64,000 nt of DNA, from the NCBI GenBank assembly GCA_023014365.1, contig JAEBUN010000014.1, positions 434,001 through 498,000 on the forward strand, read 5' to 3'. This document shows positions 10,572-45,265 of this stretch, one piece after another. Made by a program: the position numbers and the translations under genes. The DNA is from Lepiota brunneoincarnata (lineage: Eukaryota > Basidiomycota > Agaricomycetes > Agaricales > Agaricaceae). Under the pieces are notes generated by a model that saw only the letters and a program-made list of their open reading frames with translations, did no database searches and was not told the DNA's origin. Each line of letters opens with the position of its first letter. Position 1 is the first letter of the stretch.

Positions 10572-11475
10572 GCTTATACATTATGCGAAGTTTGGGTCAA
10601 TATTGTTGGACGAGAGACAGCAGAGGTATTCTCAGCCCAAGCGAGAGCTATGCGGCTTAAGAATGGTGTTGGAACAGGAGAAATATTTGTTGTGGGGATC
10701 GAGAAATCTAGTAGTGGAAACAGACGCGAAGTTTCTCTTTGGGATGTTAAACAACCCAGGAAAACTCCCGAACGCTACTGTAAACCGTTGGGTGGACTTC
10801 ATTAGATCGTTCCACTTCACGCTAGTACACAAAGAAGGAAAGACATTTGGGCTGGATGGACTGTCCAGACGACGTTACTATCCCGGTGATGAGACAGCCC
10901 GTCGTTTCGACGACGGATCCGAGGACGAGGGAGAGGAGTTCGAGTTGATCAAAGGAGATCCGGGGGCTGCAGATCCGTTACCCTTGGAAGCCTTCTGTGA
11001 TGAGATCGACAGTCGCTCTGGCTTCTACCAGGGTCTGGCGCGTGATGTGTATGATTTTGAGTATGAGCTGGATCAAGCTCGGGAAGAGTACTTGGATGAA
11101 CAACAGGCTAAGCTTAGGGTTATAGAAGACCCAGCGTGCCCAGAAAACCACCGACAAGTACTAAGCTTAATGACGGATGTCAGGCTAGTGCCAGATTTCG
11201 AAGAGGAAAAGTTGACCGAGATAGAGGAAGCGTATGATGAATCGCATAGGACAGATACAGCGCGAATACAAGACGGAAGAATACCCAAAGTCAGGGAATA
11301 CCTGGAAACAGGGGGCAGTAGCGCAGCTGAAGGCTTGGATGAGCCGGATCTGTGTAAGCTTAAGCATATGGTGGAGCATTTCTTCTTGGACGAAGAGGGG
11401 AGACTGTATAGGATGAGCCCTAGCGGTCAGCATCAGCTAGTAGTGGATAAGGAGCAACGTATGTATATGTTGTGA
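10531..11475 (+). CDS. pol: RNase H and linker of Pol, after a +1 frameshift
   Basis: The frame continues the RNase H fold (YYIYQRDG, FSQPKREL-like SQPKRELCGL, VETDAKFL, GLDGLSRR near its end) and then a long acidic linker of about 200 residues leading to the integrase zinc-binding region. The in-frame TGA at 11473-11475 interrupts the protein just before the HHCC motif. The integrase follows in the same frame, so one substitution would account for the break. Confidence 0.85.
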   Translation: MGYYIYQRDGEDAKLIHYAKFGSILLDERQQRYSQPKRELCGLRMVLEQEKYLLWGSRNLVVETDAKFLFGMLNNPGKLPNATVNRWVDFIRSFHFTLVHKEGKTFGLDGLSRRRYYPGDETARRFDDGSEDEGEEFELIKGDPGAADPLPLEAFCDEIDSRSGFYQGLARDVYDFEYELDQAREEYLDEQQAKLRVIEDPACPENHRQVLSLMTDVRLVPDFEEEKLTEIEEAYDESHRTDTARIQDGRIPKVREYLETGGSSAAEGLDEPDLCKLKHMVEHFFLDEEGRLYRMSPSGQHQLVVDKEQRMYML

Positions 11476-12174
11476 GCCAGCCACGACTTCCTAGGACACA
11501 GGGGAATATACGCAACCACTAAGCTTATAACGCAGAGGTTCTGGTGGCCGGAAGTTGAAGGAGACGTAACTTGGTATGTGCAATCGTGCCATCTATGCCA
11601 GCAACGACAAAAGGCGATCATCGAGACGCCGCCAATAGTAACGCCCACGCCGTCGATATTCCAAGTGCTACATGTGGACACACTACATATGACGCCAAGT
11701 TCTAATGGGTGTAGTTATATTGTGCATGGAAGGTGTGGACTGTCGTCCTGGATGGAGGCAAAAGCTTTGAGAAAAGAGAATGCTAGTTCGATTGCACAGT
11801 GGTTATTTGAAGATATCATTTGCAGATGGGGCTGTATAGTGAAGATTGTCACGGACAACGGTTCTCCATTTAAGAAAGCTGTTCGATGGCTGGAAGAAAA
11901 ATATGGGATAAAAGGAGTAACGATATCTCCTTACAATTCCAAAGTGAACGGGATTATTGAAAGAGCCCACTGGGATGTGCGGCAAATGTTGTACAAAGCT
12001 ACAGATGGAGATGTCAAAAAGTGGTATTGGCACCTACCGCACGTTATGTGGGCAGATCGGATAACCATTAGAAAAGGAATGGGGTGTTCCCCGTACTTTC
12101 TGGTAACCGGAGTGCACCCGACTGCTACCTCTGGATGTCAAAGAGGCCACTTGGCTAGTACAACTACCAAATAA
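11476..12174 (+). CDS. pol: Integrase: HHCC zinc-binding and catalytic core
   Basis: In the same frame as the RNase H segment, directly after the TGA, comes HDFLGHRG...SCHLCQQRQ, the HHCC zinc-binding motif. The catalytic core shows the three acidic residues: D in VLHVDTLH, D in VTDNGSPF and E in GIIERAHWD, with about 34 residues between the last two as expected for the DDE integrases of LTR elements. A one-base disturbance near 12130 shifts the frame, so this segment ends prematurely at 12172-12174. Confidence 0.9.
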
Positions 12175-12658
12175 GTACTTAACCATGGCCGAGTTAATAG
12201 GATACCGAGCTCAGGCTTTGGCAAAACATGTTCGGCATGTTGAGGAGGTGCGTCAGCGTGTTTCAGACACTAAGCTTAGCAAGGCTTGGGAGATGGAACG
12301 ACAAGCAGCACATAAGATAAAAGATTATCGCTTCGGCCCGGGAGATTTAGTATTAGTGAGAAACACAGCTATAGAGAGCTCAGCAGACAGGAAGATGAAA
12401 CCCAGGTATCTAGGACCCATGGTGGTCATATCTAGATCGAAGGGAGGATCATATATCCTGGCAGAGTTGGATGGCTCTGTATGGCAGAATAAAGTGGCGG
12501 CGTTCAGAGTAATTCCCTACTTAGCCAGAAAACATATGCTGTTGCCGCTGGAGTTACAAGAGTTGTTAGATCTGTCGCCAGAGGGACTGAAGACCCTGGA
12601 GGAGACTACTGAGGATGAGCCTAGTGACAGATGGGAGCCAGAAGAGTTGGAGGGATAG
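12130..12658 (+). CDS. pol: Integrase C-terminal GPY/F-type domain
   Basis: The integrase continues in the next frame with [12 protein letters not shown] and then a basic region ([20 protein letters not shown]). The GPY/F-like module follows ([20 protein letters not shown] and [18 protein letters not shown]). The acidic tail ends at 12656-12658. The GPY/F motif is characteristic of Ty3/gypsy integrases and supports the element's assignment. An ATG at 12185 is within the domain boundary and is not thought to be a genuine start. Confidence 0.85.
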
Positions 12659-12734
12659 AAAAAACCTGATATTGTGGACAGAACTATCTACTTATCGAAG
12701 GAAAACTATCCTGGGGACTGTAACAGCGTTAAGC

Positions 12735-14081
12735 TTAAGCGGGGGAGGACTTGTCCAAGTCGGAAAGGTTGCACAAAAGGCTTTTGAGACGGATGCGCTC
12801 TTGAATGAGGAATTGGAACCTTTTTAAGTTGGCTTCGAGCGAGGGAATAGCATCGATGAAGTCCCGGCTGAGCGAATTGAGGTCGCATTTGACTGACCGA
12901 GCGTCGTCACCGCGAGATTCGGATTCGTACTCGTCGCGAGAGTGAGACAGGAGGTTTTGGAGTTCCTGGAGCAAACGAGCTGCCCGGGAGAAGTGTCAGT
13001 ACCGTTAAGCTTAGCGAAGAGAAGTGAGAAATTGCCCACCAGATAAGCCCGCAAAGGTGCGCTCATCGGAAGCAGACTCGGTACGGGCGCGCTTGGCAGT
13101 ATTGGCGCTGGCTTTGGCTAGAACCTGTTCAGCCCGGACATAACAGCAGTGTTTAGTGTTCATATTGGGAACTTGACAATAGGAAAGAAGACGGACGGTG
13201 CCTTTAGACGATGAGGACTTTTTGACGGTCTCCTAAAGAGGGAGGAAGTCAGAATCAGTGGTTGGGGGGAGTGGAGCTGGCACACCACGTCGGAGGTAGA
13301 CAAACGACGCTTGCGATAAGGCGAGACTACACGAACCTCTTCGACGATAGCTTGAGAGACCTCCTCATTGACCATCATGTCCTGGAGGCGAGCGATTATC
13401 TCAGCCAATGTAATAGGTTGAGAAGCAGCTATATTACCGTGTCAGCACCAGTTGCTCGGGAGTTGGAAGCACTGGGCATACTCTCAGCAAGCTCGGTATT
13501 GGTGTCTACCACAACAGCAGCAGAGACAGGGGCCTTGCGACCTTTGCGAGGCTAAGCTTATACATGAGGAGACGATTGGAGCCAAAAGAACGCTAAGCTT
13601 ACGCGTTTGGGGACAGCAGAGCCTTCGGCAACGTTGGAGGAAGTAGAGCCAGTCATGGACGATGGGTTCTGAGCCTCTTCGGTCCTGGATTTGTGGGATT
13701 CTTCGGAACGAACGCGATTAATGCGGCTACAGCATTCAGAGAGCGCCTTATAGATCACGGGCATCTCATAAGACGAATGGTAGTTGTTTTGGTAAATTTC
13801 GTAGAGCTTGCGGATACGGAAGACATAGTCCTGGTTGACATGAAGCTTGATAGCCTCATTATCCTCCGATAACGCTTCAATATAAGCAGACTAGAAATGA
13901 TTTGGAAACGGCGAGAGAAGCATGGAAAGAGTAGACATACCCCAGGGGCGTTGAACGCAAGGAGAGCCTTCTCGACGAGGGGACGAGCGACTTGGCCGTT
14001 TTGCAGGCGCTGAAGACGACCTTTGGCATTGCTGATGAGATCGTCGAGCTCAACCTGGAGATGGGGGATAGAAGAAGCCAT
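12735..14081 (-). CDS. Antisense accessory gene B of the gypsy element (helical protein)
   Basis: Five exons on the strand opposite to pol fit together with small introns: 13941-14081, 13603-13890, 13289-13551, 13040-13232 and 12735-12979. The start is the ATG at 14081 (MASSIPHLQVELDD). The product is rich in amphipathic helix, with basic clusters (PKR/PRKGRK at an exon junction, AKRARTES) that look like nuclear localisation signals, and a coiled-coil-like C-terminus. Exon 3 needs a one-base shift near 13436. Intron 2 (13552-13602) has the palindrome TAAGCTTA at both its donor and its acceptor, intron 4 contains one, and the stop codon lies in another. I do not recognise the family. Expression from the element's antisense strand is inferred, not shown. 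Confidence 0.6.
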
Positions 14082-14355
14082 TTTCTTGCGAAGGGTGTCT
14101 GCTAGAATGAGACGTCGCTCCCTCGCTTTTATAAGAAAAGGCCGTAGGCAGTGATGACAAATCATAACGAGTGGATGAAGAGCACCCTCCACCCTAAGCT
14201 TATGACCTGAGGGGCCTAGGAAACCTGTAATCTTGAGTAGCCAGCCTTCGACAGACTTGCTGAACCACAGTTGCCTTATTAGGTAACATGTTGCCAGGGT
14301 CTCGCGGTTATCAGTGTGCACAGGGATTCTGATGGAACGGTGAGGGCACCGATTT

Positions 14356-14375
14356 CAATTTGGCTAGGGGGAGAT
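14356..14375 (+). other. Second polypurine-tract-like site inside the element
   Basis: The 20 bases here repeat, with a single difference, the sequence that ends at the 3' LTR boundary (17094-17113): CAATTTGG, then CTAGGGGGAGA, then the start of a TG. It could serve as an additional plus-strand priming site or mark the end of a shorter ancestral element. It sits between the two antisense genes. Confidence 0.5.
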
Positions 14376-14752
14376 GGGTCCCAAGGGGCACTTCAGTTTG
14401 ACAGTTTGACGCGAGCTTTTTCGAACAGCGTGGACAGGCTGGTTCGGGCTTGTAAGTAAACCGGAGCGGATGAGCTGGGTCACTACACGTTGCGGGTCAC
14501 GGCGCGCTGAGATGTCAATAAACATCACTGATAGATCAGAGAGGCATATAATGAGTATATAAGTGACTGGCAACCTAAACTAGCTTAGGAGTCTCCCAGG
14601 AGGTCTTTAGCTTAGCTTTAGGAGATGACAAGAAAGTCAAAAAACAGTTTAGCTTAACTCAGTAGGAGACAAGGAACAACAAGATGACTATTGGGATGTA
14701 TATACATGACAAGATTATATACTACATCCAAGAAGTAAACTAGGCGCAGAGA

Positions 14753-16784
14753 TCACTCAAGGTCTTCTAGAACAGACTCCGGATCCTGAGTCATCAGGAA
14801 AGCGAGGAAGAGAAGCGATTTGAGCTCCTCGAATTCCTCGTATGTCAGGACCCCCAGAAAGTTGTTGGCGAACTCAAAGAACGCCCGAACGTCTTCAAGG
14901 GAGTCGGCCATACCCATCTCTACAAAAGCCACGTCGTTACCGTCCAAGGCAGTCCTGGTAGCTTGCATCTCCTGGACGAATTGATAAACTACACGGCGGT
15001 GGTGAAACGCCGAAGCCTCGTAAGCGACGCGGTTCACCTCCAGGCTGACCAAGCTAGAGGACACAACACGCGCGAACGCGGCCAGATCTAGAAAAATAAA
15101 GAGAATAAGAAAAGGGAAAAATAGTGAACAGAGAAACTTACGGTATTCACTGGTCAGTGAGGATGTGACCAGGGCGTTCGCAACGCTGGCCGAAACCCGG
15201 GGATGGTCCGCGAAGGTACAAGGGTAGTTGTACAAGTCGCAGCTGCGACACTTCTTACCCTTGCCCAGAGGCTCGCACTCCAACTTACAAGCAGCGCAAG
15301 AAGGACACTGAGACTGAGGTGGCACGTACTGGAGCAGATGTCAAAGCCGTCAGTAAGGAACCACGAGAAAACTTGGAGAACGTACCGAAAGCTGGCTAGC
15401 TGCCAGCAGCCTAGGAAAGTCCTCACAAAAGAGCGGGACTGGGTGCCGGTATCCATGGTCCTGAATAATTTCGGCCTCAGAGCGCCGAACGCGAGCCCGG
15501 GGAACGTATTTCTTTGTCCGCGTGTTGGAACTCTTCTTGGACGAAAGGACACGTTGTTGACGCGACGGGCCAGCATGAGGGGACTCTTGAGGGATCTCCG
15601 GAACCACCGGGCTAGGCAAACGAGAAAGGACAGGGGGTCGGAGAAGCTAAGAACGCGTCTTGAAAAACAAAAGTCGGTTCTTGAGGGGCAGGCGAAGGCT
15701 CCAGAAGGAGCTCCAAATCTGGAGAAGGAGAAATCTCCACGGCGCTTGCGGGAGACGCGACTGGAGCGCCAGCTAAGTGAGGTGGTGATGGTGTTGGGCA
15801 CCTAGGCAAAGCCAGCACCTGTTGCCCATCCAGAGAAGAGGACCAGCTAAAGATTTTGAAGAGGTCGGCTTGAGAGATCTCAGGGACTGGAGAACGCGAT
15901 GACAAGTTAGAACCCGCCAGGAATAAGGGGAGAGGGGGCGGCGTCGATGATTTCGCCCTCTGTTTGCCTTTAAAGGCAGCTGGTATACGCGCTAAAGCAG
16001 AAGTCAGCGGAAAGAACAAATATATCGTAAAAAACGACTAAGCTTACGCGTTGAAGTAGCAGAAGAGAGTACGGGGGAAGAAGGCCGGTTTGTTGAAGGG
16101 CCTGGCACCTCCGAACCTGATGCAATACCCAAGGGAGGGAGCACCAGCAAGTCTTCCTCATCCAGGGTGCGCAGAGAGACGGCGAGAGGGGGCAGCGACA
16201 TTGAACTGGACGAAGCCTCTGTGGATAATCCACCAGAGGGCCCGCCAATGGGGATACCTGACGAGGGTTCTGCGGAAAATCCGGCAGAGCGCTTGTCGGT
16301 TGGATTGCACAACGACGCGATGGAAATCACGCGTCTTGGCACTGGAGCGTACAAAGGAGAGGCCGGCGGAGGAGTTGGTTCGCGGGGCGGAGAGTATGGT
16401 GGAGGAGGGGTCCTTGCCACACCCACCTGACGATTTCCGCGAGCTCCTCGAGCTCCTCGCCCTCCTCTAGCCCTCCTAGTATGCGGTGCTGGTGGTTCCC
16501 ATTGAGGTAGGAGGTTGCGACGTGCCGGGAGGCGAATAGTGAGACCTAAAAGTAGAGAAAACATAAGTAAAGACAACGAGAACAGGGGAAAACGCGACTT
16601 ACGTTGCGCGATCGATGATGAAGGCGCGCCTTGGGAAGCCGTTGAGGCGTTGCTTGGCCCAGGGTAGCCTGAAAACAGTGTTAAGAAAACAGACAAAACT
16701 GTAACTCAAACTCTACTTACTGGAAGAAGAGTCCGAGTCCTCCTCGTAGCGAGCACGTTTGCTGCTGCGCGTGTTTCTGTCCAT
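14753..16784 (-). CDS. Antisense accessory gene A of the gypsy element, Zn2Cys6-type protein
   Basis: A multi-exon gene opposite to pol. Exons I can place are 16721-16784 (MDRNTRSSKRAR, a basic nuclear-signal-like start), 16603-16668, 16048-16545, about 15612-15991, about 15386-15619, 15142-15328 and 14753-15087, joined by canonical 50-60 bp introns. The long middle part is Pro/Ser/Arg-rich and disordered. Exon 15142-15328 holds six cysteines spaced C-x2-C-x6-C-x8-C-x2-C-x6-C (CPSCAACKLEC...KKCRSC...C), the exact pattern of fungal Zn2Cys6 binuclear cluster DNA-binding domains. A helical acidic C-terminus follows. The link between the fourth and fifth exons needs a frame change near 15620 (missed intron or indel). 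Intron 3 starts with GTAAGCTTAG, so its donor is one of the element's palindromes. DNA binding is inferred from spacing only. Confidence 0.65.
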
Positions 16785-17102
16785 TGTTGATAGAAGTGAG
16801 CGTTGAAAAGTGAATATGCGAGCACAATAGACGAGTAAGAAGTGAGAGGGAGAACGAAGGAGATGAAACTGAGACCTTGGGACATTTAAAAGACCCAATA
16901 AAGAGATAAAAATTTAAGCTATAGCAACAAGAAGTTGATCTATACATTTAAACTCGGTGACATGACATCATTCTGAAATAAGCTTAGCGAAAGTGTGCTA
17001 CCCTTGAAGCTGGTGAACGTTCTAGACCATAGAGCGCGTCAGAGAGACTCAGATACTGCGAATTTGAAGGAGATAATGACTGAGGACAGTCAGCAATTTG
17101 GT

Positions 17103-17112
17103 TAGGGGGAGA
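17103..17112 (+). other. Polypurine tract
   Basis: The purine run AGGGGGAGA directly abuts the TG that starts the 3' LTR, the expected position for the plus-strand primer of reverse transcription. Confidence 0.8.
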
Positions 17113-18409
17113 TGATATGCCGATTTCACGCCTATACATGAATTCCGTACTCCGGAACGATTCTCTACATAGAATCATTGGCTATATCATTAAAGAACTC
17201 TATAGAGGATTGGTACTATATCCCGTAGTAGCCAGTTTGACCGAACTGAGGATATTCGAGCCTCGGAAGTGTTCAAACCAGCTCATTATCACTAAGCTTA
17301 GTGAACCAAGCTATCAGAATGCTCTCCGGAGGGATTCAGGACTCTACATAGCCTATCGAGTATACCCCGGTCGCATCCAGGGACCTTACGAGCAGTTTTC
17401 TGATGAACCCGAATGCGTTTGAACATAAAAGAATGTACCTAGCGGCTGTCGCAGGCGTATTACGTCTATAGCGAGTTCAATAATGATGACCGGACCACGG
17501 AACGGAACGTCCAACGTTCGGGAGGCAATACCCGATGCCCAAAACCCTAGAAACATCAAAGACTCCTAATTAACAAGTGCTTTGTGGGTCCCGGCACTTC
17601 GGCATTCTGCTTAACTGAGATTAATTACAACGGATCAAGGGATTGTCCATCCGCTATACATTCCGATCATAATTGATCCGGAAACTTAACGCGCTCGCGT
17701 GGACGCAGAATAATGCAGCCGAGCACGGAGCACGTCTGGCTGGATTGCCATTCGTTAATCAGAGAAAAACCCATAACCCAGGGTGAGGTAGAAATGCTGC
17801 CGAACCTTCCAAAATGTTCTACAGTGCCTGTAACAATTAAGCTTATTGTTTTCTATTTCATATTTACTATCTCTCGTATGTATCTAAACAATATAAATAC
17901 GGTCGCACTTGTTTGTGGAGAGGAGGTCTCACCCCCACTTCCACACGCAAGTCTGCGAGCTGTGATCAAGAACGGTTTCAGAGGGCTATTTAGTGTGCGT
18001 CGTTAAGTGTGATTTCTTCGGTCGTCGACCAACCCAGGGACAGAGACAGAGACCAGAGTTCAGAGTTTAGAGTTCCAGAGTGCTAGAGACAGAGACAGAG
18101 ACAGAGACCAGAGTTCAGAGACCAGAGACCAGAGACCAGAGACCCAGCGCTTTGAATTGACAGGGATTGTCTTTTCATTGTTGCACCGTACGGCTAAGAT
18201 AACTTCAACGGCTGTTTGTTAACCTCTAAAAACACTACTCTCTTGAATTTCGCTGTCAGAACGCACCCCCAGAACACCCTAAAAGACGAAACTGTTCATT
18301 ATCTATCTCATTCCACTTGTATTAGCTTAAGCTTATCGAATAGCGGCTAAGCTTAGTGAAAACGAGCCCCCTATCTATATTAAAACCTACGAAAGTTTCT
18401 ACCTTTTCA
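17113..18409 (+). repeat. 3' LTR of the gypsy element
   Basis: Same length and order as the 5' LTR, with its own four TAAGCTTA copies (17293, 17838, 18328, 18348) and the TATA-like box at 17892-17899. It is followed by GCGG, repeating the four bases that precede the 5' LTR. Confidence 0.95.
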
Positions 18410-18413
18410 GCGG

Positions 18414-19832
18414 ACCCCAGGTATGACTGAACCTCATTTTTCCACTGACCCAGTGATCAAAACCAACAGTAGAACAACAAGCATAACAAGATGACACAGG
18501 AAGAACTGTTGGAAATGTTCCCTGGGGAAGTCAATCTTGAAGAGGAGATCAAAATCATTGAGAGCTTCAGTGGAAAAGCAGCAGAAGAGTGGACCAAACG
18601 AGAGCCAAATTACAATCCAGGGCCAATGGCCAATATGGCCAAGCTTTGAACAATATGGGAGGAAGAAATGGCACACAGGGCCTGAGAGGAAGAAATGGCA
18701 CAAAAGGCACAAGAGAAAAAACAGAGGGCATAGCATTGGGGGGAAAAAAGGAGCAGAGGGACTAAGGGCATCACATGCAAAGCAGAGGGAGGGCAAGAAC
18801 CCATACCCCCACACTAGATAGTCCATAGTTTTCTTTAGATAAATCATTGGGGGAAACCCTATGAATGGCTGATGGACAGTGCTGATAGTTCAGAGTCCCC
18901 ACTGTCCAGATGCTAGCCAGCCTGTCAAACCTCAGCAATTGGTTTTTGGTTTGGTCTTGCAGTTTGTTGCCACTGCTTGCCTTACCAATCACTAACTTAA
19001 TAAGTAGATGGGTTAGCCTGGATGAAGCCTGTGTTATGAACCAGTCCACAAACACAAAAAACCTTGAGATTGGACTGCCTTGGTCATCCATTAGATAGCA
19101 TTGGATCATGAGGAAGTTACAGAATGGGATTGGTAAAAGCAAGGGCATGCTTTCTCACCTATGCTTCAATGGCCACATGAGGAATGTGCAGGCCATAGCC
19201 CTTTGGTGCTCAGGGTGCCAAAGTCCCTTGTCTATCAGGATTTATCTATAGCCGACATATACTTATGATATTGATATCAGTACTCTGTTGATTGTCAAGT
19301 CCCCCCCCAGGTGAATGCTGACTAGGATGACCAATCACCTCAAGATCCAGGATACCTGGGACTCTGGGAAATATGCATTGCAATGATTAGGTATCAATCT
19401 ATTCCAAAAGGACCTGACACTTAGTATGGATGGAGGCTTGACCATATGATATAGAACTGATATTTCACTAAACATCACCTTCCATGTATTTTATCAGTCT
19501 GAAAGAGATGCAGAAGTAAAAGGAATGGAAGAATGCTGGACAGTGGCCTGGGAGTCATCATTGGCATCCACAAGGTCCTCAAGCATCAATAGATGGAGTT
19601 CTGCCTTCCTAAACCAACAGGGCCATTGTATATTGGTGCTTGAGATATTCTGACATATGGCAGGCAATTGGTGTGTCCCTCAGCCATATGCACCAATAGC
19701 CAAATGTAACAGGATGAATGGTTATGAATTTACATATAAGGGTGAGATGTACAGTTTCTAGTCTTTGTCCAGCTCAACACCCAACTCACCCAACAGGCCT
19801 TTACACCTTCACCCTGTGCATGAACTCTTACA
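18414..19832 (+). other. Degenerate flank with a short gag-like remnant
   Basis: At 18491-18648 an ATG opens 52 codons of an acidic, helical protein (MTQEELLEMFPGEVN...), followed by a broken stretch repeating EEEMA and KAQEKK in shifting frames up to about 18800. This looks like the N-terminus of a decayed gag or similar coiled protein. From about 19430 the sequence matches 2320 onwards and represents the promoter side of the DUF5648 gene duplicate. No intact gene is present. Confidence 0.4.
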
Positions 19833-20469
19833 ATGAAGAATATCTTCTTTACTCTTCTTGTGACTGTTCTGTTGAGCCATATCTTAGCGCAATGCAAATC
19901 TATTAATATTCAATCTGTGCATACAAACATTTATTCTTACATGCTCTTAATCTCATGATACTTAATACTTAATCCTTCAAAGCAGCATCGAGCCACTGAT
20001 AACCTGTGGAGACCCATTGGTTACTACAACATACTACAAAGCATTCCAGTCTGCAGGCTTCATGCATGGGATCAGCACTCTGGCAGCATTTGTTAACACA
20101 GATGCATGTGGAGATGCTTGTGTCAAAGTACCAAGCCATCCAGATCAATGTCCCTTATTGTTTTCTTGGCTATTTCATATTGCCCATGGTCACCATAGGT
20201 ACTCCATCATGGACTCTTTTATATTCCTGCTAGCAATGATGATCAAGTTACATTACTTAGTAAATACTTGTACATATTCTCATCATATTTAGGTAGTGGT
20301 CTGAGCACCTGTGGATGCCAGTTTTTCTATACTGGGTCTCAGGTGCATACATACCCTCAATGTATCCTCACATGTGCTTACAGTTTTTCTATACTGGGTC
20401 CCAGTGGTCCCAAATTTATATATTGTGTCTCAAGCTATACATCTGTGCAAATACCCAATCATCAGGTTA

Positions 20470-21101
20470 TGGGCCCTGCTAGCAATTCTGTTTCCAAGGC
20501 ATCTGTCCACTTTGCTAAGTTGGATGGCAAAAACTACTATGCATGGTCAGACAATATGAAAGCCACACTCCAAGCATGCCAACTCCGGTTCCATGTTGAG
20601 GGACTGGAGGAATGTCTCCCAAAGCCACCTGCTGATCCTCCTACTGGTGATGAATCAAAGCCATTAACAACATACTCACCCATCTACAAGGAATGGTTGC
20701 AGGCAAAGAAGGATCATCTTACCTGGAAGAAGCTTGATGCTTCTGTGATGGGGTTGATAAGAGGTGCTATTGAGTTCAGCAAGCAAGAACACATTGGCAA
20801 AGTCCTGTTGTCCAAGGAGATGTGGGACAAACTTTGTACATTCTATGTGGACCAATGCTGCAATGTCAGCATTCATTACTCCTACCAAGAACTCTTTACT
20901 ATGAAGTGGGATAAACGTACCTCCATGACTGGGCATATTAGCACCTTCTTGAGCCATCACCGTCACATTGTTGAAGCTGGCAAGAGGCTCGAAGACACCA
21001 TTCTCATCCACAATATATGTACTCCTTTCCCTCCCTTCTTCTGGTGTCTGGGATGTTGTCAAACAATCCCTCCTCAGCCAAGGAAAGAGCCTTATCCTTG
21101 A
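20470..21101 (+). pseudogene. gag: Copia Gag (UBN2-type) fragment
   Basis: A frame around 20500-21000 encodes KLDGKNYYAWSDNMKATLQA, the typical start of copia Gag proteins, followed by a UBN2-like helical domain (KEMWDKLCTFYVD). It closes by frameshift near 21050. The zinc knuckle, protease and integrase that should follow are absent; reverse transcriptase sequence resumes at about 21285. Confidence 0.8.
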
Positions 21102-21506
21102 CAAGGTGAAGGCTGAGTTGATTATGACACACCATCGAATTGAACATAAGCATGCCAATGGCAATACCTTGAAGGCCAAGTCTGATCAGCTGGTCTTGGT
21201 TGCCAAGTCATGGCCAACCAGTTCTGGAAATTCAGGTAATAAGGATATGAGGAAAGCTACAATATACAGCCTATGTCAGTCCAGAAGACAATGGAAGAAG
21301 AAACTACATGAAGTCCTCACTGGACTTGGCTTCACGTGTGCCTTTGCCAATGATTGTTTGTATTTCAGCAAGGAGGACAGCAAGATTATACTCATTGTCC
21401 TTGTTTATGTTGATGATATGGCTATCACAGGTCCTGGAGGATGCAAGATCATGTCCTCCAAGTTGGCTTTAGGTGGAGAGTTCGACATTACTGATCTCGG
21501 GGAGCT

Positions 21507-22027
21507 TGTTAGGGCAACCTGGGGGCCCAGGCAACTCAGGGGAACTGAGGGGAGCAGAGGTGAACCTGCAGGGGAATCCTAAGTGTCATTGACCAGGTAT
21601 GTACATGTGGGGGGCTTACCTGCAGGGGAATCCTAAGAGAATAGGATGAAGAGACTCCTGCAGGCGAAAACTGTGTATATACATGACTTATATAAGCAAT
21701 ATTAATGAATAGGGGGGTGAAGCGAACTGTCCCAACACTGCTAATGTAGGAATAAGGAAGGATGAAAGGAGGGAGTGAATATGGTGACAAGGGAGTGTCA
21801 GGTAATAGGAGAATATAGGAGAGGTGTCAGGGGGAGTCTGGAGGGGGATAGGGAGGGCTTGTGAGGACCTTCATGGGGTGCTTGGGTTGTTCTGGGTATC
21901 CTGGGGCTTCTGGCGTTTGAAGGGAGGAAGGTATAGTGTGCTGGAGGGTAAGGGGATGCTTTGAGGGGTTTTGGGGGTGTGGGACATGTTAGGAGTGTCT
22001 TTGAGGCCTCTGAGGTGTCCCCTTACA
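21507..22027 (+). mobile_element. Solo LTR, family 1 (521 bp), inside copia
   Basis: It starts TGTTAGGGCAACCTGG and ends CCCCTTACA like the copy at 3498-3959, and is flanked by the duplication GAGCT (21502-21506 and 22028-22032). It interrupts the copia reverse transcriptase just after the GEL motif. Confidence 0.92.
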
Positions 22028-22405
22028 GAGCTCAAGTACATGCTTTGGATTGCCATTGTACAAGATCGTGCAAATCGCCTCATATATCTCAACCAAATGG
22101 CCTACATCTGCCAAATGCTTGTCTGGTTTGGCATGCAGGATGCAAACCTGGTTTCCACTCCCCATCCTGTTAAACACAATCTCACCCAGTCTCATTCCCC
22201 TAGCACCACTGACAAAAAACATGCCTATGTTGAACATGCAGGTGATATCCATTACCTGTCCCTCACTGGCTTGCTCCTCTTTGCCACACAGATGTGACCT
22301 GACATCCAGTTTGCTGTCAGCCTCATTGCCCAATTTGGTGGTAACCCAGGCATTGCTTATTTAGAGGCTGCGAAGCACATTCTCCATTTCCTCAAGGGTA
22401 CAGCT

Positions 22406-23106
22406 TGTTATGAATAGTCTGGATCAAGAGGAACAGGAACAACTATTCAACTTTACAAGATGGGTACAGGAGACCACAGACCAGTTACGAGCACAGGAGT
22501 ATGAAGACAAAGAAGGGGAATATTATAACACCATGCAGGACCTGGCAAGAGAAGCGGGAATGGAGATAACTCTGGAGGATATTCTGGAATACCCCAAGGA
22601 TGAAGAGGACAGCCATGGATCAACCAATCCAACCTCTGATGTAGATGGAAGTACCGAGAGAGTGGAGAGCAAGAATGGAGGAGACTACATGGAGATAGAA
22701 TCAGGAGAAGGAGATTATGAGTCAGAGGAAAGCGATGGAACATTGCACAGCAGTAAGAACGAGGACACTGACTCATTGTAATATAAATAACAATAGGATG
22801 CCATCAGCTAGGATGCGCATCATGGTCAAGACTGTGGATGACAGTAGAACAGCCCAACTACCTATAATGGGTATATAGTGTCTCATAGGTATATAAGGCC
22901 TGTACAAGTAGAGATTAAAGCCCTAAGCTTTAATCTTGTTAACAGCAGTCGTTAACCCTCTCTGCCTTAACTTGGCATGTTCCCTTGTTATCTCATTGAG
23001 CGCAATCCACTAAGCTCTGCAAGGCCAACCATCTTGGACACCTTGTAGAGTGATTGAAGGCTGTCTCCAGTTATCCTCAGATACAGAAGGAGCATGGATC
23101 ATAACA
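22406..23106 (+). mobile_element. Solo LTR, family 2 (701 bp), inside copia
   Basis: The ends form a perfect 8-bp inverted repeat, TGTTATGA and TCATAACA, and the flanks carry the duplication CAGCT (22401-22405 and 23107-23111). A 123-codon open frame begins at the ATG in the left terminus itself (22410) and encodes a very acidic protein. A TATA-like region (about 22890) and pyrimidine-rich 3' part fit an LTR. The copia RNase H is restored when it is removed. Confidence 0.9.
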
Positions 23107-24348
23107 CAGCTGATTACAGTCTGGCCTTGGGAAGATGTGGGCAGGATGCTTTTGACTTGGTCAGTTGGACAGATTCCAATTGGGCTCAGGATTCTGATGA
23201 CCAAAGGTCCATTGGAGGCTTTGTTTTTGAAGTTGCTGGTAGCTCTATTTTGTATTTCATGGTCTTCGAAGAAACAACCCACAGTTGCCACCTCATCCGT
23301 TGAGGCTGAGTACATTGCAGCTGCCAATGCCACCAAGGAGGCAATCTGGCTTCGCACATTGCTCAAGGAGTTGGATTTCCCACAAACAGTTGCTACCATC
23401 ATCCATGCAGACAACCAGGGGTGTAATGCACTTTCCACCAATCCAGTTGCCTATTCTTGTGCCAAGCATATCGACATACATCACCATTTTATTTGCAAAC
23501 ATGTAGAGACCAAGGAGATCGAGTTACACTATGTGTCTATGGCCAATATGCTTGCAGATATTTTTACTAAAGCTCTCCCACAGGAGGCCTTTGCCAAGTT
23601 CCACACTCACCTCAGTGTGTTGCCTCCTTACTGACATCTCACTGAGTGGGAGTGTCAAAGTACCGAGCCATCCAGCTTGATGTCCCTTATTGTTTTCTTG
23701 GCTATTTCATATTGCCCATAGTCACCGTAGGTACTCCATTATAGACTCTTTTATATTCCTGCTAGCAACGACAATCGAGTTACATTACTTAGTAAATAAT
23801 TGTACACATTCTCATTCGTATTTAGGTAGTGGTCCAAGCACCTGTGGATGCCAGTTTTTCTATACTGGGTCCCAGGTGCATACATACCTCAATGTATCCT
23901 CACACGTGCTTACAGTTTTTCTATACTGGGTCCCAGTGGTCCCAAATTTATATATTGTGTCTCGAGCTATACGTCTGCACAAATACCCAATCATCAGCTT
24001 GGCAGATCATAGGACCCTCCCATAGAGTGTGGGCCTCTCCTGGACAGCCTGATACCATCCCCCTTTATGCATACTTCAATCCGATAACCACAGATTGGGT
24101 GTATCTGCTCTCCCAAAATGGGATCGCTCCACCCCCTCCAAGTGGCTTTGGGCCCAGAACAGTCCTAAATTATGTGTACCCCATGCAGATTTGTGGCAGT
24201 GTCCCCCTTTATGGAGCATCTGGGCTGGGGGACCATTGGTACACCACAAACCTGCAAGTACATAACAAATTAGTTAACAACCTCGGATGGAGTGATGTTG
24301 GAATTGTGGCATATGTATTACCCGTGGATGGTATGCTTCCTTCTTTCT

Positions 24349-37100: not shown

Positions 37101-39300
37101 GTGCAATCGAAGGGTGGACGGCGATGAGAACATGGTGAATTTTTTCGTTATATTTTGGCGTGGGACAATGCGGGCCGTTTGTTCCTATCCCAACTTCTTT
37201 CCGAACAAGGTTACTAGGCCCGAAGCAAGGCTACACACATAAACATGTATTGGTTTGAGACCGAGCCTTCCATGAAAAAACATACCCATGCCCCCCCACA
37301 CGTCACGCCTCATACCGCATCACACACTTCCCGGAATCCTTAGTCGAAAAAAATCCTGAGAGCTCCGGAGCCTGGGATCATGCAGATTCGGGAACAGCAC
37401 TTCCAGACACGTCGCATAAGCACTTATGACACAGCCGAAAGCGGATGGAAAGGTATTGTTGAACTACAAGAGGGAGAGCTGTGAGAAAAAGAGTAAAAAG
37501 GTAGAATCGAGACATGAACTTACCGTTTTTGAGACGTTGATGTGCTTGCCTCGTCTCCTGGTCTACTGCCCGACGCCGAAAGGGAATGGACTTGGCAGTG
37601 GCTTCACCTTCTCCTTCTACCCCTCAACATCGCCATTATGAGGTTACAAGAAATCGAAGCTCAACCATTGCTGAAGGGGGTGAATTACTATCAACCAAAG
37701 TGTTCGCTTCAAGGTGAGGGGACTTAGAAGGGGCAAGGGAGAAGGTGGTGATACGTACCTGGTAAACCTGGCTCCCAGACAAGTACCCGGGCTTAGCATC
37801 CAATACACAGTGGTGGTAGAACCAGAAGATAGCATCAGGCCAGGCGGCGCTTCATAATCCAAAAGGGTGGAGTCGAACAGTAAGTTGGTCAGCTAGATTT
37901 GAGATATGTTTAGCGCGGCGGGGCCCTGCCGAATTAAAGCATAGATGCTATAGCCCATGGAAGCCAACATGTCCTACTCCCTTGGCCGTAATAGCAAGGC
38001 TCGGACATGGGTCATTCAACAAGCGAAGCAATTGCCTACGCGTCGTACGATAAAAAGAAAAGTAGTCGACTCCAGTGTAAGGCGATTGGAAGGCGTGACA
38101 GAAACCGAGGCGTCGGTGCTAGCGCTGCATGCTAACGACCGGACAGAGGAAAGATGATGGGAACAACACCAGAAATCGATTTTCCCGAGGTGAGCTGGAG
38201 CTACTTGTGAAAGATCGGCAAATTATCGATGTCACGCAAGAGAGGGTGGGCGGCGAGGAGAATGCGTTTCCAACGGTCCGAAGTAATACCTGCTGGATGC
38301 TCCTGTTCTACCGTAAATGGAGGGGCCTGTGCCCCATTCGAGGCGCTAAGTGCCGAAATCGGGTGGAGCACCCAAGTCCAGCTGTATTCGAGACCTCCAT
38401 CAGACTACAGAGAAGCGAGTCGGACTCGCGCCCTCCATAAAAAACGGGACTCACGTCATATCCTACACTATGGCTCGACGTCAATTTGGGGAGCAGCACT
38501 TCCGGACATGTACCTAGGCCCTCGGTGAAGGAAAAGAGGATCGGTTGAGAGATACGACGAGCTACAAGAGACAGAACTGTGAGGATGATGGTGAAAGAGC
38601 AAATCCAAGATGAGAGCCTACTGACCTATGACGTGGTATTATGTTTCCATGTCGGAGATGGGAACACTGGTCCTGAGAGTTGGCGGGTGAATGGGCTCGG
38701 CGGAGGCTTATTGCATAGTGGAAGCAGCAAAAGCAATGATCGATGAGCGCTGAGCTAGTCCACTCCAGACAAGTCGTGGAGCAATCACACACACGTATGT
38801 ACATGTAAGACGCAGTGCTCCCCGTAGATAGAGCCACGGGTCTGGGTCCGGGTGGCATGAAAAGGACCCGCGCTCCTAATCGTGAGCGTCTGGCGCTCAA
38901 CAGGAGGATGACAACGGCAATGCCTCTACTGCACGTGCATTCTTGGGTGAGCATATGAGTCGCGAAGACAACGCATGTCCAGGTATCTTCGTGAAACCAC
39001 TACGGCGGTTTATGGACAGAAGGGTGACTTCAGGTAATGCGTTGGTTGTCGCGTATCACATGACCGTTATGGATCATCGATCATCGATCCAGTCGCGCCC
39101 AAATTGAACAGGAATCACGGTCCATTGTACTCTGCTCAATGCACACCAAGTAATCGTGGGTGCCTTCCATCCGTCAATGTTCAAGCAGCGATGGTCAGGC
39201 TTGCGGTTCATAGACAATGCCCGCTGGGGATTCTGCATCCTTAGTGTTAGCAAACATTACACACCGCCCCTCAGCGTTATCAGTGCTGTGCATGGTTACC
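31112..39300. repeat. Decayed, partly triplicated region without intact genes
   Basis: Several blocks recur in the same orientation at reduced similarity: about 31790-31925 with 35105-35245; 32370-32790 with 35290-35730; 32900-33000 with 35814-35905 and 38090-38190; 34255-34690 with 36740-37145; and 36060-36560 with 38810-39300. The order is compatible with an ancient tandem duplication of a unit of roughly 3 kb, followed by indels. At 31215-31310 a plus-strand remnant (LGAVTLVFSALNVLTYALWW) resembles the last membrane helix of a common basidiomycete membrane-protein family. I find no long open frame, LTR pair or terminal inverted repeat that explains the duplicated unit. Confidence 0.55.
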
Positions 39301-39467
39301 AATATAGAATATGTCGGGTTCAATGGGAAACTAACCTTACCTTTTTCGTTGAAGACGTGCACGCCTCGTGCCACCCCCAGGCTTCCATACACAGCCGGAC
39401 TGTTCGCTTCTTTGTCTCCCTCTCAAACCTTCACCCCCACCATCATTATCTACAGTATCGTTCAGCA

Positions 39468-42400
39468 ATGGCTACCGACTCAACCCCCTTCCGTTTCTCA
39501 AGGGTTTTTGCTATTCGTCGAATTTCACCGAATACTACTGAGAGACCCCCCTCGACAATCCGTAAATACTTATCGAAATGGCTGCCCATACCCAAGTCAG
39601 ACTCCAAGCGCATCACTTCTGGTGCTCAAGAGCCAAGTGCCCCCGACGATTATGACTCCCGCGGGTCTCGAGTCCGTGAATATACCACCGTCGCACTCAC
39701 TACGGTGCTACCTATCACCGAAGCCATCCCAGTTGCGGGGCCTCCCTTGAAAGCAGCCATCGGCGGCTTGCTAGCAGCCCTCCAAATTATCGACGTGAGT
39801 TCTGATAGGTTCCCAATTGTCTAGATTGACCAAGAAACTAATCCCAATTTTTAGCGAATCGATCGGAACAACCGAGATGCCAAGATTCTCGAGACGAGGC
39901 TCCGTCGGCTGAACGAACATCTCGCCGCCGTTCCAGGTGTCTCCTCCCAGGAACTCAATGTCCTTCGCGACGGTTTAACTGCGTACGTCCATAGAGTCTC
40001 ACCATCTACATACCCTCCCTAATAATCGTAGTAAACTGAACGAAACCTTGACAACCCTGAAGGAAGTTGGGGATGAAGCGAAAGGTCCGATACGCAACTA
40101 CTTGCACAGGTGATTCGCCAATGCTCTGAAGAAATCACGTTCTATATGTCGGAGTGTACCGTAAGAGCTTTTTCTGCGAATCCAGATCGAGAATATTATT
40201 CTGAAAACACTTGTCCGCCAGCTCGTGAGTAACATGTATATCGCAGCGAATATCGAGGTGTTTGTCCCTCCGGCACCACGACCCGCAGCTGGTTGGGCAA
40301 CGGGAATCACCTTGGTGGACGCAACCCGGAAGGAGTGGCCATTGCCTGCATTCCTTGCGGTGTCGCACGAGGTATGTGTTCAAGGTGTATCAATGGACTC
40401 GGGTGGCCTGGTGATTCGCTGACCGGATTGAAACAGGTCTTTTTGGGGGCCATTTCCGCACTCATGAAAACGGACAAATTGGAAGTCCGTGTGCAGCGGC
40501 CATATGTGGAAAGGGGCATGTATGACCTCTGCATCGACGAGGGTGGTAAGGTTGTCCCAATTACGGGAGAGAGTGATTGGTCCAGGGTTCAGCCCGGGAC
40601 AAGGATTGTCATGAGTGCAATTCTTGTGCGGCGACAATTCACTGGCAATAAAAGGTATAAATGTCCCCGGTGCAAGGCCTGGAATGATGCTGGTGGCTAT
40701 GAAGGTGTATCAATTGACTGGTAAGTCCAGTTACCTCCTTGGTATTGATTTTAAAACAATAGATTATGTTTTAGCAAGAAATGTGATGGTCGGTTCCAGA
40801 TGTCAGAAGCAGATACTGCACCAGGGCAGAGAATAAGCTATCAATCTAATATAGGGGATACTCAAGATATAGGCCTATTGCAAAACATCCACCTAAAACA
40901 AGTTGTAAGTAGCTGGCCAAATTGAGTAATTGCAATGATTGACATTTTGACTTTGATGAATTTTACTCTATTTCTATTTTAGCCAGTAGGTTTTGCATTT
41001 TTTGTCAGCTAGACTTGAAACACTGATCTTGTCTGTCTTCATTTTCACATCTCAGGAGGTGGGTTCTCCAGTTTGTGACCTGTGTTTGAAACACTGACCT
41101 TGTCTGTCTTCACTTTCACCTCTCAGTTTGTGGGTTCTCCAGTTTGTGACCTGTGCTTGAAACACTGACCTTGTCTGTCTTCACTTTCACCTCTCAGAGA
41201 GTGGGTTCTCCAGTTTGTGACCTGTGTTTGAAACACTGACCTTGTCTGTCTTCACTTTCACCTCTCAGTTTGTGGGTTCTCCAGTTTGTGACCTGTGTTT
41301 GAAACACTGACCTTGTTTGTCTTCACTTTCACCTCTCAGTTTGTGGGTTCTCCAGTTTGTGACCTGTGTTTGAAACACTGACCTTGTCTGTCTTCACTTT
41401 CACCTCTCAGTTTGTGGGTTTTCCAGTTTGTGACCTGTGTTTGAAACACTGACCTTGTCTGTCTTCACTTTCACCTCTCAGGAGGTGGGTTCTCCAGTTT
41501 GTGACCTGTGTTTGAAACACTGACCTTGTCTGTCTTCACTTTCACCTCTCAGTTTGTGGGTTCTCCAGTTTGTGACCTGTGTTTGAAACACTGACCTTGT
41601 CTGTCTTCACTTTCACCTCTCAGGAGGTGGGTTCTCCAGTTTGTGACCTGTGCTTGAAACACTGACCTTGTCTGTCTTCACTTTCACCTCTCAGGAGGTG
41701 GGTTCTCCAGTTTGTGACCTGTGCTTGAAACACTGACCTTGTCTGTCTTCACTTTCACCTCTCAGTTTGTGGGTTCTCCAGTTTGTGACCTGTGTTTGAA
41801 ACACTGACCTTGTTTGTCTTCACTTTCACCTCTCAGTTTGTGGGTTCTCCAGTTTGTGACCTGTGTTTGAAACACTGACCTTGTCTGTCTTCACTTTCAC
41901 CTCTCAGGAGGTGGGTTTTCCAGTTTGTGACCTGTGTTTGAAACACTGACCTTGTCTGTCTTCACTTTCACCTCTCAGGAGGTGGGTTCTCCAGTTTGTG
42001 ACCTGTGCTTGAAACACTGACCTTGTCTGTCTTCACTTTCACCTCTCAGTTTGTGGGTTCTCCAGTTTGTGACCTGTGTTTGAAATACTAACCTTGTCTG
42101 TCTTCACTTTCACTTCTCAGGAGGTGGGTTCTCCAGTTTGTGACCTGTGTTTGAAACACTGACCTTGTCTGTCTTCACTTTCACCTCTCAGGAGGTGGGT
42201 TCTCCAGTTTGTGACCTGTGCTTGAAACACTGACCTTGTCTGTCTTCACTTTCACCTCTCAGAGAGTGGGTTCTCCAGTTTGTGACCTGTGTTTGTAACA
42301 CTGACCTTGTCTGTCTTCACTTTCACCTCTCAGGAGGTGGGTTCTCCAGTTTGTGACCTGTGCTTGAAACACTGACCTTGTCTGTCTTCACTTTCACCTC

Positions 42401-43375
42401 TCAGGAGGTGGGTTCTCCAGTTTGTGACCTGTGCTTGAAACACTGACCTTGTCTGTCTTCACTTTCACCTCTCAGTTTGTGGGTTCTCCAGTTTGTGACC
42501 TGTGTTTGAAACACTGACCTTGTCTGTCTCCACTCTCACCCCTCAGGAGGTGGGTTCTCCAATTTGTGTCTTGTGTTTAAAATACTGACCCTGTCTGTCT
42601 CCACTCTCACCCCTCAGTTGGTGGGTTCTCCAGTTTGTGTCTTGTGTTTAAAATGCTGACCTTGTCTATCTTCATTCTCACTCCTTAGAGAGTAGGTTCT
42701 CCAATTTCATATTCTGCACTTGAAATACTAACCTAGCTTATATATATCTTTATTTTCTAGAGGGTGGGTGCTTTAGTCTTGTGGGCTATTTTCTAATCAC
42801 TGGGTTTATATCACCTCTTATTTTTCAGGAGGTCAGTCCTTCAACTATATGTGAAGCATTGATACATCCATCTTCTACCATCATTTTTAGGATGTTAGTA
42901 TTTATTGGTCTACTCAATCAACAACTGCTGACCTTTTTTCATCCCTTTGCCCTGCAGGAAGTTTGTATCCTTATGTTAATGCTATCTAGCTAACCTTTCT
43001 AACACCTATTTTTTATTTCTAGAATGTATTTGGTTCTTTCCCATCACTTTATATGGATGCTTACCTATTTTGTTTTTTATGCCACTTTCCAGAAGGTTTG
43101 TATCTTCATTCTGTTTATTGTCTATGGTATTGATCATATTTCTGTGTCTTAGGAGGTATCACTACATCTTACCACTACCCCCACGAAATATTGATTTTCC
43201 TTGCCATTTATTCTATAGTTTGTGAGTCATCTTCTTCCCTTAACAAATATTTATGTTCACAGGTAATTGGCTCCCCTAGGTTGTGAGTAAACATGCTATT
43301 CAAAATACTGTACCTTGTGCTGGTTTTATCTGATGACAATTCTTTCTACAGCCTCCCTGGTACTTTGATGACTGA
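39468..43375 (+). CDS. Ubiquitin-like (ULD-type) domain protein with zinc ribbon and microexon-like 3' array
   Basis: Exons that can be read are 39468-39794, 39855-39982, 40032-about 40430 (two apparent compensating one-base shifts near 40109 and 40205), a central exon from VFLGAIS at about 40437 to 40722, and one from about 40775 to 40904. The N-terminal half is helical. The centre matches the ubiquitin-like domain common in agaricomycetes (GITLVDATRKEWPLPAFLAV, VERGMYDLCIDEG, WSRVQPGTRIVMSAILV). A four-cysteine ribbon follows (YKCPRCKAW ... CKKCDGRFQ) and then LLQNIHLKQV at a GTAAGT donor. Downstream are 34 or so repeats of acceptor-triplet-donor (separate entry) and a last exon that could end PPWYFDD at 43375. 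The joining of the array to the gene is inference from phase and splice signals. Confidence 0.65.
40983..43351 (+). repeat. 71-bp tandem array; every unit carries AG-NNN-GTNNGT
   Basis: Twenty-four units with exact 71-bp spacing start at 41056 and end at 42689. Each has a pyrimidine-rich tract ending CTCTCAG (less often CTTAG), a variable triplet, then GTGGGT (GTAGGT in the last unit), a second GT site (CCAGTTTGTGACC) and a branch-like CACTGACC. The triplets are GAG (11), TTT (9), AGA (3) and TTG (1) while the other 68 bases are nearly constant. A less regular unit precedes (40983, CCA then GTAGGT). At least eight decayed units follow (AGG 42761, GAG 42829, GAT 42891, GAA 42958, AAT 43023, AAG 43093, GAG 43153, TTT 43219), nearly all keeping AG, three bases, then GT, even where the second GT site has been lost. 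The triplet, or a 15-base XVGSP codon block, would be in phase 0 with the flanking exons. Confidence 0.85.
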
Positions 43376-43780
43376 GCAATAGTTGGCAACCAGGCAGTGG
43401 CAAGATGGACAAGGTAAGTACCAGAGCAGTTTACCAGTTAGGCTTTGTAGAGCTAATTGAGCAGAACATTCCAAAGGGCAACAGAATTCTTTCAATTTTT
43501 TCATGGGAGGTTTTCAGAAATAGGTGGAAATACAACCAATAGTGCACATTTTGTTCTGTAAAGTGAATGGTGTACAGGTGTATATGTAACAGCTTCTCAA
43601 AGTCTTCATGCATAAGAGACATATACTATCCAGAGTATACGAGAGACTGAGACTAGCATATGTGCATGAAGCCATCCTCTAGGTCTAGTCAACCACATCA
43701 ACATTCGTGTTCACCCTTCATCATTATCATCATCATTAGCAACAGCACCATTACAGGTCAACTATAAAATTTTAAACATT

Positions 43781-45265
43781 TTACGAGACATTAGTCGTTA
43801 ACGCAGACCCAATCCACCCTAGAAGTTTAAGAAACCCGAATATACACCCTCCCGAAACAATTGGCAGTGTCAGGTTATCATCCAACGACCCAAGATCTAG
43901 AAGAAACACAACACCCCATCAACGCGAGGCTCTAAGAACTAACCACAAAACAAACTCACCCATCGCTTCCGCAACACCACTAACGAACCCCGCAACAACA
44001 CCCAACACACCCAACCCCACCCACCCCTTCGCGAATCCACCCCCACCCAACCCTACGCCAATCGTTACCGCCGGTACCTACCTATCCGCACTCCCTCATC
44101 CCACGCCCAGCTCAAGCTCACGACCACCCAACCTAATCGGAGCAATAGTAGACCAGAAGCCAACAGCGATAAGCGCGCCCGTGACTGCTCGCCGCTACGA
44201 ACCCCGCTAATGACTTGCGTGGTGCGAGTGGAATGCGGAGGAAGGGGAGGCGGGAGGGGAGACGAGGGGAGGAAGGGCCGTAGAGACGGCCGATTGTGGA
44301 TGCGGCTGTGTCAGCCCAGGAGAGGCTGTATTTCAGGGAGAGGAGGGGTGAGTCAGGTATGTTTGAAAAGGAACGAACGTGTACTCACATGAGGATAGCG
44401 ACGGTCGCAATGTCCCGAGGGTAGAATTGGAGAGCAAAGTTGACACCAAGGATGTACCATATCACACCGTTTGTGGAGTTCTACGAGACATGCGCGCACG
44501 TTAGTTTACTATAATTTATTTTATTTTATGGTTAATGATGGGGGGAGGGGGGAGCAGGATGGGCGGGGGATGCACAAACACACACACCTTTTCACTGTCA
44601 CGCATAAGAAACCCCACGGCGCGCTCGTACAGCCTCTCGAAAGCAGGCCAGCGGAAACGGAGAATGTCGGCAGGGACAATGATGCATAGAGCCGACCAGA
44701 GCACGAGCACGATTTTGGAGACATCACCTTCGGAGATGTAGAGATACAGCGTCACGAAGCCTATACATATAACACACACGCCCTCAGTAAACAAAGAAAA
44801 AAAAAACCCCGAGTGGGAATTTGGAAGCAAAGGAAAAAACGGACCGATAGAGCTGTGTAGCAGTTTTCTTGGGATCTCCCAATCGATTTTTGGTGGTGGA
44901 GTGGTGGTGGTGCCGTTTGCATGGCCATTCGCGGACTTTAGGATGGTGGAAGTAGTTGTGTCGTCGTGCTCAATGAGGTCCCGTTCGACCTCGCGTTCGC
45001 CATCACTGACATTGGATGAAGGGGTGTCTGTGTCGTCCTCGGGTGTGGTGAGGTAGAGATCGACCATTTCTATGTGGCCGAAGCCCTCGAGTCTCCTGAT
45101 GACCTTTCGCGTAATATTATGGACACCGCTCTCGTCTGAGGAAGGGAGGGGAGTAGGTGAGAAGGTGATGACGGGTGAACGGGAGGGACGGCGACGACGT
45201 GGAGGGATGGACTGGAGATGAGTTAGGGGGCTCGGCGACTTGGTGATATTCGGGGCAGCTGACAT
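43781..45265 (-). CDS. DGK1: CTP-dependent diacylglycerol kinase, DGK1-like
   Basis: Six exons: 44845-45265, 44588-44760, 44389-44480, 44122-44325, 43960-44052 and 43781-43896, about 365 residues. The first 130 residues are a Ser/Pro-rich cytosolic tail; then comes the conserved membrane core: IDWEIPRKLLHSSIGF, VLWSALCIIVPADILR, FERLYERAVGFLMRDSEK, GVIWYILGVNFALQFYPRDIA, LSWADTAASTIGR, APRKSLAGF and DLGSLDDNLTLPIVSG. In yeast this family phosphorylates diacylglycerol to phosphatidate with CTP in the ER/nuclear membrane. The start at 45265 (MSAAPN) was chosen because it follows the RPS22 3' end closely; an upstream in-frame ATG at 45349 is possible. One extra base near 44175 must be ignored to keep exon 4 open, most simply a sequence error. 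Confidence 0.85.

Follow-up and report, generated by a model that had tools for sequence, protein, structure and literature searches.

A gene of the basidiomycete Lepiota brunneoincarnata encoding a ULD_2 domain and a zinc ribbon contains at its 3′ end an unbroken chain of 34 small units, each comprising a pyrimidine-AG acceptor, three bases and a GT donor. Comparison of several copies of this array indicates that it is probably a tandem chain of single-codon (3 nt) exons separated by short U2-type introns that would be spliced by intron definition. The gene lies on the plus strand of the window, i.e. the whole stretch of 64,000 nt analysed here, which corresponds to C8:434001-498000 in a 55.6-Mb genome of 95 contigs; all results come from this one genome assembly. 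We infer that the triplets are spliced and translated, and that the length or sequence of the resulting tail may have a function.

A chain of units with three bases between acceptor and donor

Tandem Repeats Finder detects a repeat at 41015-42707 with a period of 71, 23.8 copies and 93% matches. The chain of units extends beyond this, from 40983 (triplet CCA) to 43280 (GTT), with spacings of 60-73 and no gap. Exactly three bases separate YAG (Y is a pyrimidine) from GT in all 34 units, and the donor takes the form GTNNGT in 32, the exceptions being GTATTT at 43023 and GTATCA at 43153. The first unit (CCA, 40983..40985) has the donor GTAGGT. It is followed at 41056..42691 by 24 regular units, each a triplet plus a 68-nt intron, in exact 71-bp steps from 41056 to 42689; the triplets are GAG (11), TTT (9), AGA (3) and TTG (1), the donor is GTGGGT (GTAGGT in the last), the acceptor is CTCAG or CTTAG, and the CTRAY branch motif starts 33 nt before the end of the intron. 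Nine old, diverged units follow at 42692..43351 (AGG GAG GAT GAA AAT AAG GAG TTT GTT), with spacings of 60-72 and introns of 57-69 nt. The original prediction, made from this sequence, had described the 34-unit chain, the 24 regular units with these four triplets and the fit of the preceding CCA unit, all of which we recover; it also held that the old units keep GTNNGT, which stands, except that its five of seven becomes seven of nine when all the old units are counted, including that at 43280.

The introns of the window range from 57 to 70 nt and fall into all three classes modulo 3, with the exon constant at 3 nt. There is an in-frame stop inside 31 of the 34 introns, so that units left unspliced would end the protein. 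An exact CTRAY is present in 29 of the 34, beginning 33 nt before the intron end in 25.

A chance origin of the chain can be ruled out. The 600-bp old tail contains seven strict sites (the longest strict chain being four) and a loose chain of nine, while 5000 dinucleotide shuffles of the same 600 bp gave a mean of 0.05 strict sites, a maximum of two, and loose chains of three or fewer. Strict sites elsewhere in the window number six on the plus strand and four on the minus strand, none of them chained.

Copies of the array

A three-unit query, for which locus counts are lower bounds, found the array at six or more places: four on contig C8 (L011, L012, L013 and the window), one on C5 (L014) and a remnant on C25 (L015). 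Every matched locus was a copy of the same array, and a dispersed introner-like family was rejected on this ground. The units listed number 25 in L011, 49 in L012, 23 in L013 and 34 in the window. The triplet is exactly 3 nt in all 106 units of the window, L012 and L013 (34/34, 49/49 and 23/23), while the introns of these three loci vary from 57 to 72 nt and represent every class modulo 3. Exon length and phase are thus constant (except in four units of L011) and copy number varies among the paralogues, as expected of a tandem exon array. From sequence and conservation the putative exons would also be microexons, i.e. 30 nt or less with conserved flanking splice sites.

The array gene lies within a segmental duplication, with four copies on C8 whose arrays are 95-103 kb apart. 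In the window this spans approximately 38100-45100, limits that are set by the loci fetched, and the other copies lie near C8:174-180k, 277-286k and 364-379k. The stretch at 46.5-47.7 kb of the window is unique, and that at 37.0-38.8 kb also matches C63 and C5. A neighbouring minus-strand gene at 44.5-45.3 kb matches CTP-dependent diacylglycerol kinases, the best named matches coming from Macrolepiota, Leucocoprinus and Leucoagaricus. CpG observed/expected in the kinase flank (43800-45000) is 0.93 in the window and 0.13-0.15 in L011-L013. CpG decay of the C8 duplicates is patchy, the array gene keeping its CpG in the window and L012.

Conservation of the splice signals

The old tails of the C8 copies are 99% identical, and the ten oldest units were compared between the window and C5. 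At the 62 aligned positions of the splice core (one of which really belongs to the last exon, leaving the counts of differences unchanged) there was no substitution, compared with 7.4 expected from base-specific intron rates (P = 3e-4); only substitutions at aligned sites are counted, so that a donor gap in unit 42689 relative to C5 falls outside. The introns differ at 56 of 544 positions without the pyrimidine at −3 (57 of 552 with it), the triplets at 6 of 30 and the last exon at none of 24. The tail introns contain almost no CpG, so CpG decay does not explain the conservation of the core.

A similar pattern is seen in 18 regular C5 units, picked by eye (leaving out L014r 5137, which has a 1-nt gap beside an insertion, and one truncated unit) and compared with the C8 consensus. 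Mismatches number 0/36 at the first GT, 1/36 at AG and 2/36 at +5/+6, with 9/36 at +3/+4 and 90/666 at other intron sites. The base preceding the branch A is G in nine and A in eight, both of which the CTRAY consensus allows, and is shifted by a deletion in one. The conservation of splice sites where the intron bodies drift supports the view that these sites were under selection. C5 is now a pseudogene, and any selection on its splice sites would therefore have to predate that decay.

These comparisons bear on the possibility that the region is a single long intron, of 2.4 kb in the window and 3.5 kb in L012, in which a minisatellite has arisen from intron sequence and the splice sites of the units are unused relics. 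At the DNA level the array is indeed a minisatellite by definition, i.e. a unit of tens of bp repeated in tandem in varying numbers, and the conservation of the regular units alone says little because they are recent copies. Yet minisatellite status does not explain the constraint on the splice signals: the old units have retained AG, 3 nt and GT despite drift elsewhere, and their cores are unchanged relative to C5 where introns differ by 10%. By contrast, the C25 remnant, where a protein search found no ULD gene, has lost splice-site bases in three of four alignable units: the +5 G is gone from one, a deletion has removed the GAG exon of another, and a third lacks both AG and GT; the fourth is intact. 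Moreover, an intron of 2-3.5 kb would be unusual in a fungus. We therefore regard unused relics as unlikely.

The gene and a model for its expression

The gene structure was read from the intact paralogue L012 (C8:280k). In the window exon 1 (39468..39794, 327 nt) begins with ATG, and is followed by exon 2 (39855..39982, 128 nt), exon 3 (40032..40371), exon 4 (40437..40720, 284 nt, with most of the ULD_2 domain and the first half of the CxxC...CxxC ribbon) and exon 5 (40775..40904, 130 nt), which ends ...NIHLKQV in phase 0 and is followed by GTAAGT. The chain comes next, and the last exon (43352..43375, CCTCCCTGGTACTTTGATGACTGA, encoding PPWYFDD-stop) is identical to that of the C5 copy and also in phase 0, so that both junctions of the array are in the same phase. 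Compared with L012, exon 3 of the window contains three extra single bases, and two in-frame stops lie between these insertions; the insertions, like one in L011, may be real or errors of assembly. The five exons of L012 have consistent phases and encode 402 amino acids ending ...NIHLKQV, before its chain and the PPWYFDD-stop exon; residues 242-327 match Pfam ULD_2 (PF22893) with 29.7 bits against a gathering cut-off of 24.5. Among the five gene copies examined L012 alone has an intact frame. It also has the longest chain, of 49 units, in which all 49 triplets are in-frame sense codons leading to PPWYFDD-stop.

In the model that we favour the chain would occupy the last intron position of the gene, each 71-bp unit adding one codon. 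The introns would be recognized by intron definition and removed stepwise; with neighbouring splice sites only 3 nt apart, adjacent introns are unlikely to be handled at once and would be removed in sequence. Complete splicing would give a tail of between 34 (window pattern) and 49 residues (L012) ahead of PPWYFDD. Every exon being one codon in phase 0, the skipping of any number of units would keep the frame. Single-codon exons in phase with the ubiquitin-like gene and separated by introns of about 68 nt had been proposed in the original prediction, and the paralogues support this: the splice cores are conserved, the exons are 3 nt, the introns fall in all modulo-3 classes, CTRAY is mostly kept, and the sole intact gene carries the longest fully in-frame chain.

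A different use of the same sites is that they serve mainly for stepwise (recursive) removal of the region, or as decoys that set the level of expression, the triplets themselves being for the most part left out of the mRNA or without importance for the protein. GAG units do place AG beside GT (CAGGAG|GT), creating a possible zero-length recursive site, and given the in-frame stops in most introns incomplete splicing would lower expression. However, a recursive splice site proper has a zero-length exon, which the GAG units could mimic, while the length here is exactly 3 nt in every unit of three loci; in addition the triplets of the intact copy are all sense codons, an argument that is weak alone as there are few distinct triplets. 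We consider this explanation improbable too. Nor are the units stwintrons, as each has its own donor and acceptor and most have their own CTRAY.

Exons of 15 nt (x-V-G-S-P) with the second GT (GTTTGT) as donor, the alternative offered in the original prediction, can be dismissed as very improbable: most regular units can be read so, also in frame, but 2 of 24 window units and 5 of 18 C5 units no longer have the second GT while all units of both sets retain the first, VGSP is not preserved in the old units, and the unit at 43263, whose reading as V-I-G-S-P had favoured this alternative, is GCA ATT GGC TCT CTT (A-I-G-S-L) in C5. Downstream of 43263, CTAG|GTT|GTGAGT remains acceptor, triplet and donor in C5 as TTAG|ATT|GTGAGT.

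Variable triplets on near-constant introns

The triplets are much more variable than the introns that separate them. Across 77 regular units of L011, L012, L013 and the window, the first, second and third bases of the triplet show a heterozygosity of 0.73, 0.68 and 0.63, whereas the 68 intron positions average 0.038 and nowhere exceed 0.385. The 77 were taken from 81 pattern-matched units (window 21/21, L011 7/10, L012 38/38, L013 11/12), the pattern skipping units without TCTCCA, including two in the window. The commonest intron sequence, present in 34 units, follows GAG (13), AGA (7), CTT (7), TTT (4) and TCG (3), codons that differ pairwise at two or three positions with the exception of CTT and TTT.

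Plain duplication with random mutation would not be expected to place five such codons on an identical 68-nt intron. Our preferred reading is that codon differences have been kept for a long time while introns were homogenized by recombination or conversion; another is that the same intron was inserted at successive codon boundaries. The array probably grew by unequal exchange. L012 contains the block CTT CTT TCG GAG three times consecutively (4477-5258), so duplication of several units at once also occurs.

We tentatively suggest that the array could act as a device for writing tails, in which unequal exchange and conversion would reshuffle codon exons on a homogenized intron and skipping would add in-frame variants, so that one family of ULD_2 genes would yield tails differing greatly in length and sequence. 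This might possibly include diversifying selection on the codons, for example in the recognition of self or of partners.

The predicted tail and its relatives

The predicted tail of L012 is LEREERERLLSRLELRRRLLERELLSELLSELLSELLELRREDENKEFV then PPWYFDD, and is composed mostly of L, E, R and S; that of the window pattern is PEFRFFFEFEEFFEEFEEREEFELRREDENKEFV, and the predicted peptides end ...EDENKEFVPPWYFDD. Residues rich in L, E, R and S favour helices, and the tail may thus be helical. A coiled coil is only a possibility, because amphipathicity at 100 degrees is not above that of shuffled tails (mean moment P: L012 0.82, window 0.29, L013 0.47). The hydrophobic moment of L012 peaks at 80 degrees, as repeats of four units would produce.

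Beyond the paralogues, the closest relative found was an Agrocybe protein (P0001) with 38% identity, in which the HLKQ motif is also present and the predicted tail after it is acidic and unlike that of the array gene. When the protein search was repeated with an alignment, the Agrocybe protein was again its only match; both searches scored only about 8000 candidates sharing most words. A search of the plasmid collection gave no match, and one of viral contigs two pattern matches, neither of which was confirmed.

In a distant paralogue on C1 (L032), 58% identical over the matched stretch, a donor-like GTAAGT comes after HLKQL, and neither a chain of units nor a tail of this kind is seen. This suggests that the array probably grew at an intron position that was already present. 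At the other ULD_2 locus of the genome (L033, C1:592k), none of the sites listed for the two strands has a donor of the form GTNNGT. Behind the distant paralogue, at approximately 3260-3800 of L032, there are repeated coiled-coil fragments which we take to resemble the linker of heat-shock factor.

Observations that weigh against single-codon exons

A number of observations count against the model. Four of the five gene copies (window, L011, L013 and C5) are broken. The frameshift of the window copy lies upstream of its own chain, L013 has a TGA in exon 1, and L011 has its insertion in exon 1, gaps of 1, 2 or 4 nt in 4 of 25 listed units, and a further old unit with its donor altered to GTGGGG. 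The C5 copy has many stops and a CpG observed/expected of 0.10, compared with 0.92-0.93 in the window and L012. Its array is broken by two long non-unit stretches (gaps of 913 and 549 bases in the list of units), which are probably insertions. Even the splice signals are not perfect there: one donor among the ten oldest has an inserted G (GTAGGT to GTAGGG), one regular unit lacks its AG, and one unit adjoining a foreign insertion has a 1-nt gap. In the window all five introns lacking an exact CTRAY are among the nine oldest. The failure of amphipathicity to exceed that of shuffled tails, the different tail of the Agrocybe relative and the missing chain in the C1 paralogue belong with these points. 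Taken with the evidence above, they leave single-codon exons as the probable reading.

Other features of the window

Two direct repeats at 4800-5764 and 17456-18419 are 99.6% identical over 965 bp (the left edge is not bounded). Open reading frames between them, at 6320-12658, are presumably gag-pol-like from motifs that we recognize, and 4800-18419 looks like a young long terminal repeat retroelement on the basis of the repeats and these motifs. The reading frames at 20268-23634 we take to be fragments of a Ty1/copia polyprotein.

Comparison with known systems

If spliced as proposed, the array would be an extreme of exon fragmentation with one residue per exon, the 49 codons (147 nt) of the intact gene being spread across 50 introns. 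It would test the spliceosome with donors and acceptors 3 nt apart in series, together with the control of splicing order and skipping, and it could provide protein tails of variable length. Hypervariable codons set in near-constant introns bear on intron gain, concerted evolution and protein diversity. Standard gene predictors would not be expected to model such a gene, and similar genes may therefore be hidden elsewhere. Among the matches listed from the open-licence literature of PubMed Central (PMC), a collection in which subscription papers mostly do not appear, no array of single-codon exons was found in the text available.

The component features are each already known, i.e. exons of 3 nt or 1 nt, genes rich in microexons, and tandem exon arrays. 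The micro-exon genes of schistosomes are built largely of microexons. So are the bicycle/megacycle genes of aphids, one of which has more than 100 (PMC9168663); their exons are mostly in phase 2, and the excerpts available of that source mention neither homogenized 68-nt introns nor one-codon exons. Tandem arrays of the Tetrahymena type share constant exon length and phase, with 1 to 51 units per gene in T. thermophila and an origin attributed to ectopic recombination, but their exons are 90 bp and encode a leucine-rich repeat motif, whereas those of the window would be one codon each. Closer in taxonomy is the basidiomycete gene CNN00420 of Cryptococcus, which gained identical introns by repeat expansion, six introns in all according to the available part of the account (PMC2395259).

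With regard to mechanism, stwintrons (PMC8469720, PMC12403724 and PMC5639578) likewise involve stepwise splicing of packed fungal introns, as proposed here, but they are nested and interrupt a splice site, whereas the introns of the array are complete and lie 3 nt apart. The last of these sources also indicates, in the part seen, that splice sites pair across the intron in Pezizomycotina. Excerpts of PMC4674806 argue for intron definition with recursive splicing around a 1-nt exon, and those of PMC8831610 that the two introns flanking a plant microexon are apparently removed successively.

That the spliceosome is able to splice ultra-short exons is indicated by extracts describing a single 3-nt microexon in Drosophila homothorax (PMC7392893) and 1-nt exons in Arabidopsis APC11 (PMC4674806) and Fusarium CYP621A (PMC12940212). 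The lipS gene of Dactylellina haptotyla provides fungal exons of 3 nt, in the accessible text two exons with no tandem array (PMC5639578). In homothorax, APC11 and CYP621A, as in the array, an ultra-short exon lies between ordinary introns; as far as these extracts go there is one such exon per gene, compared with 34-49 consecutive candidates here.

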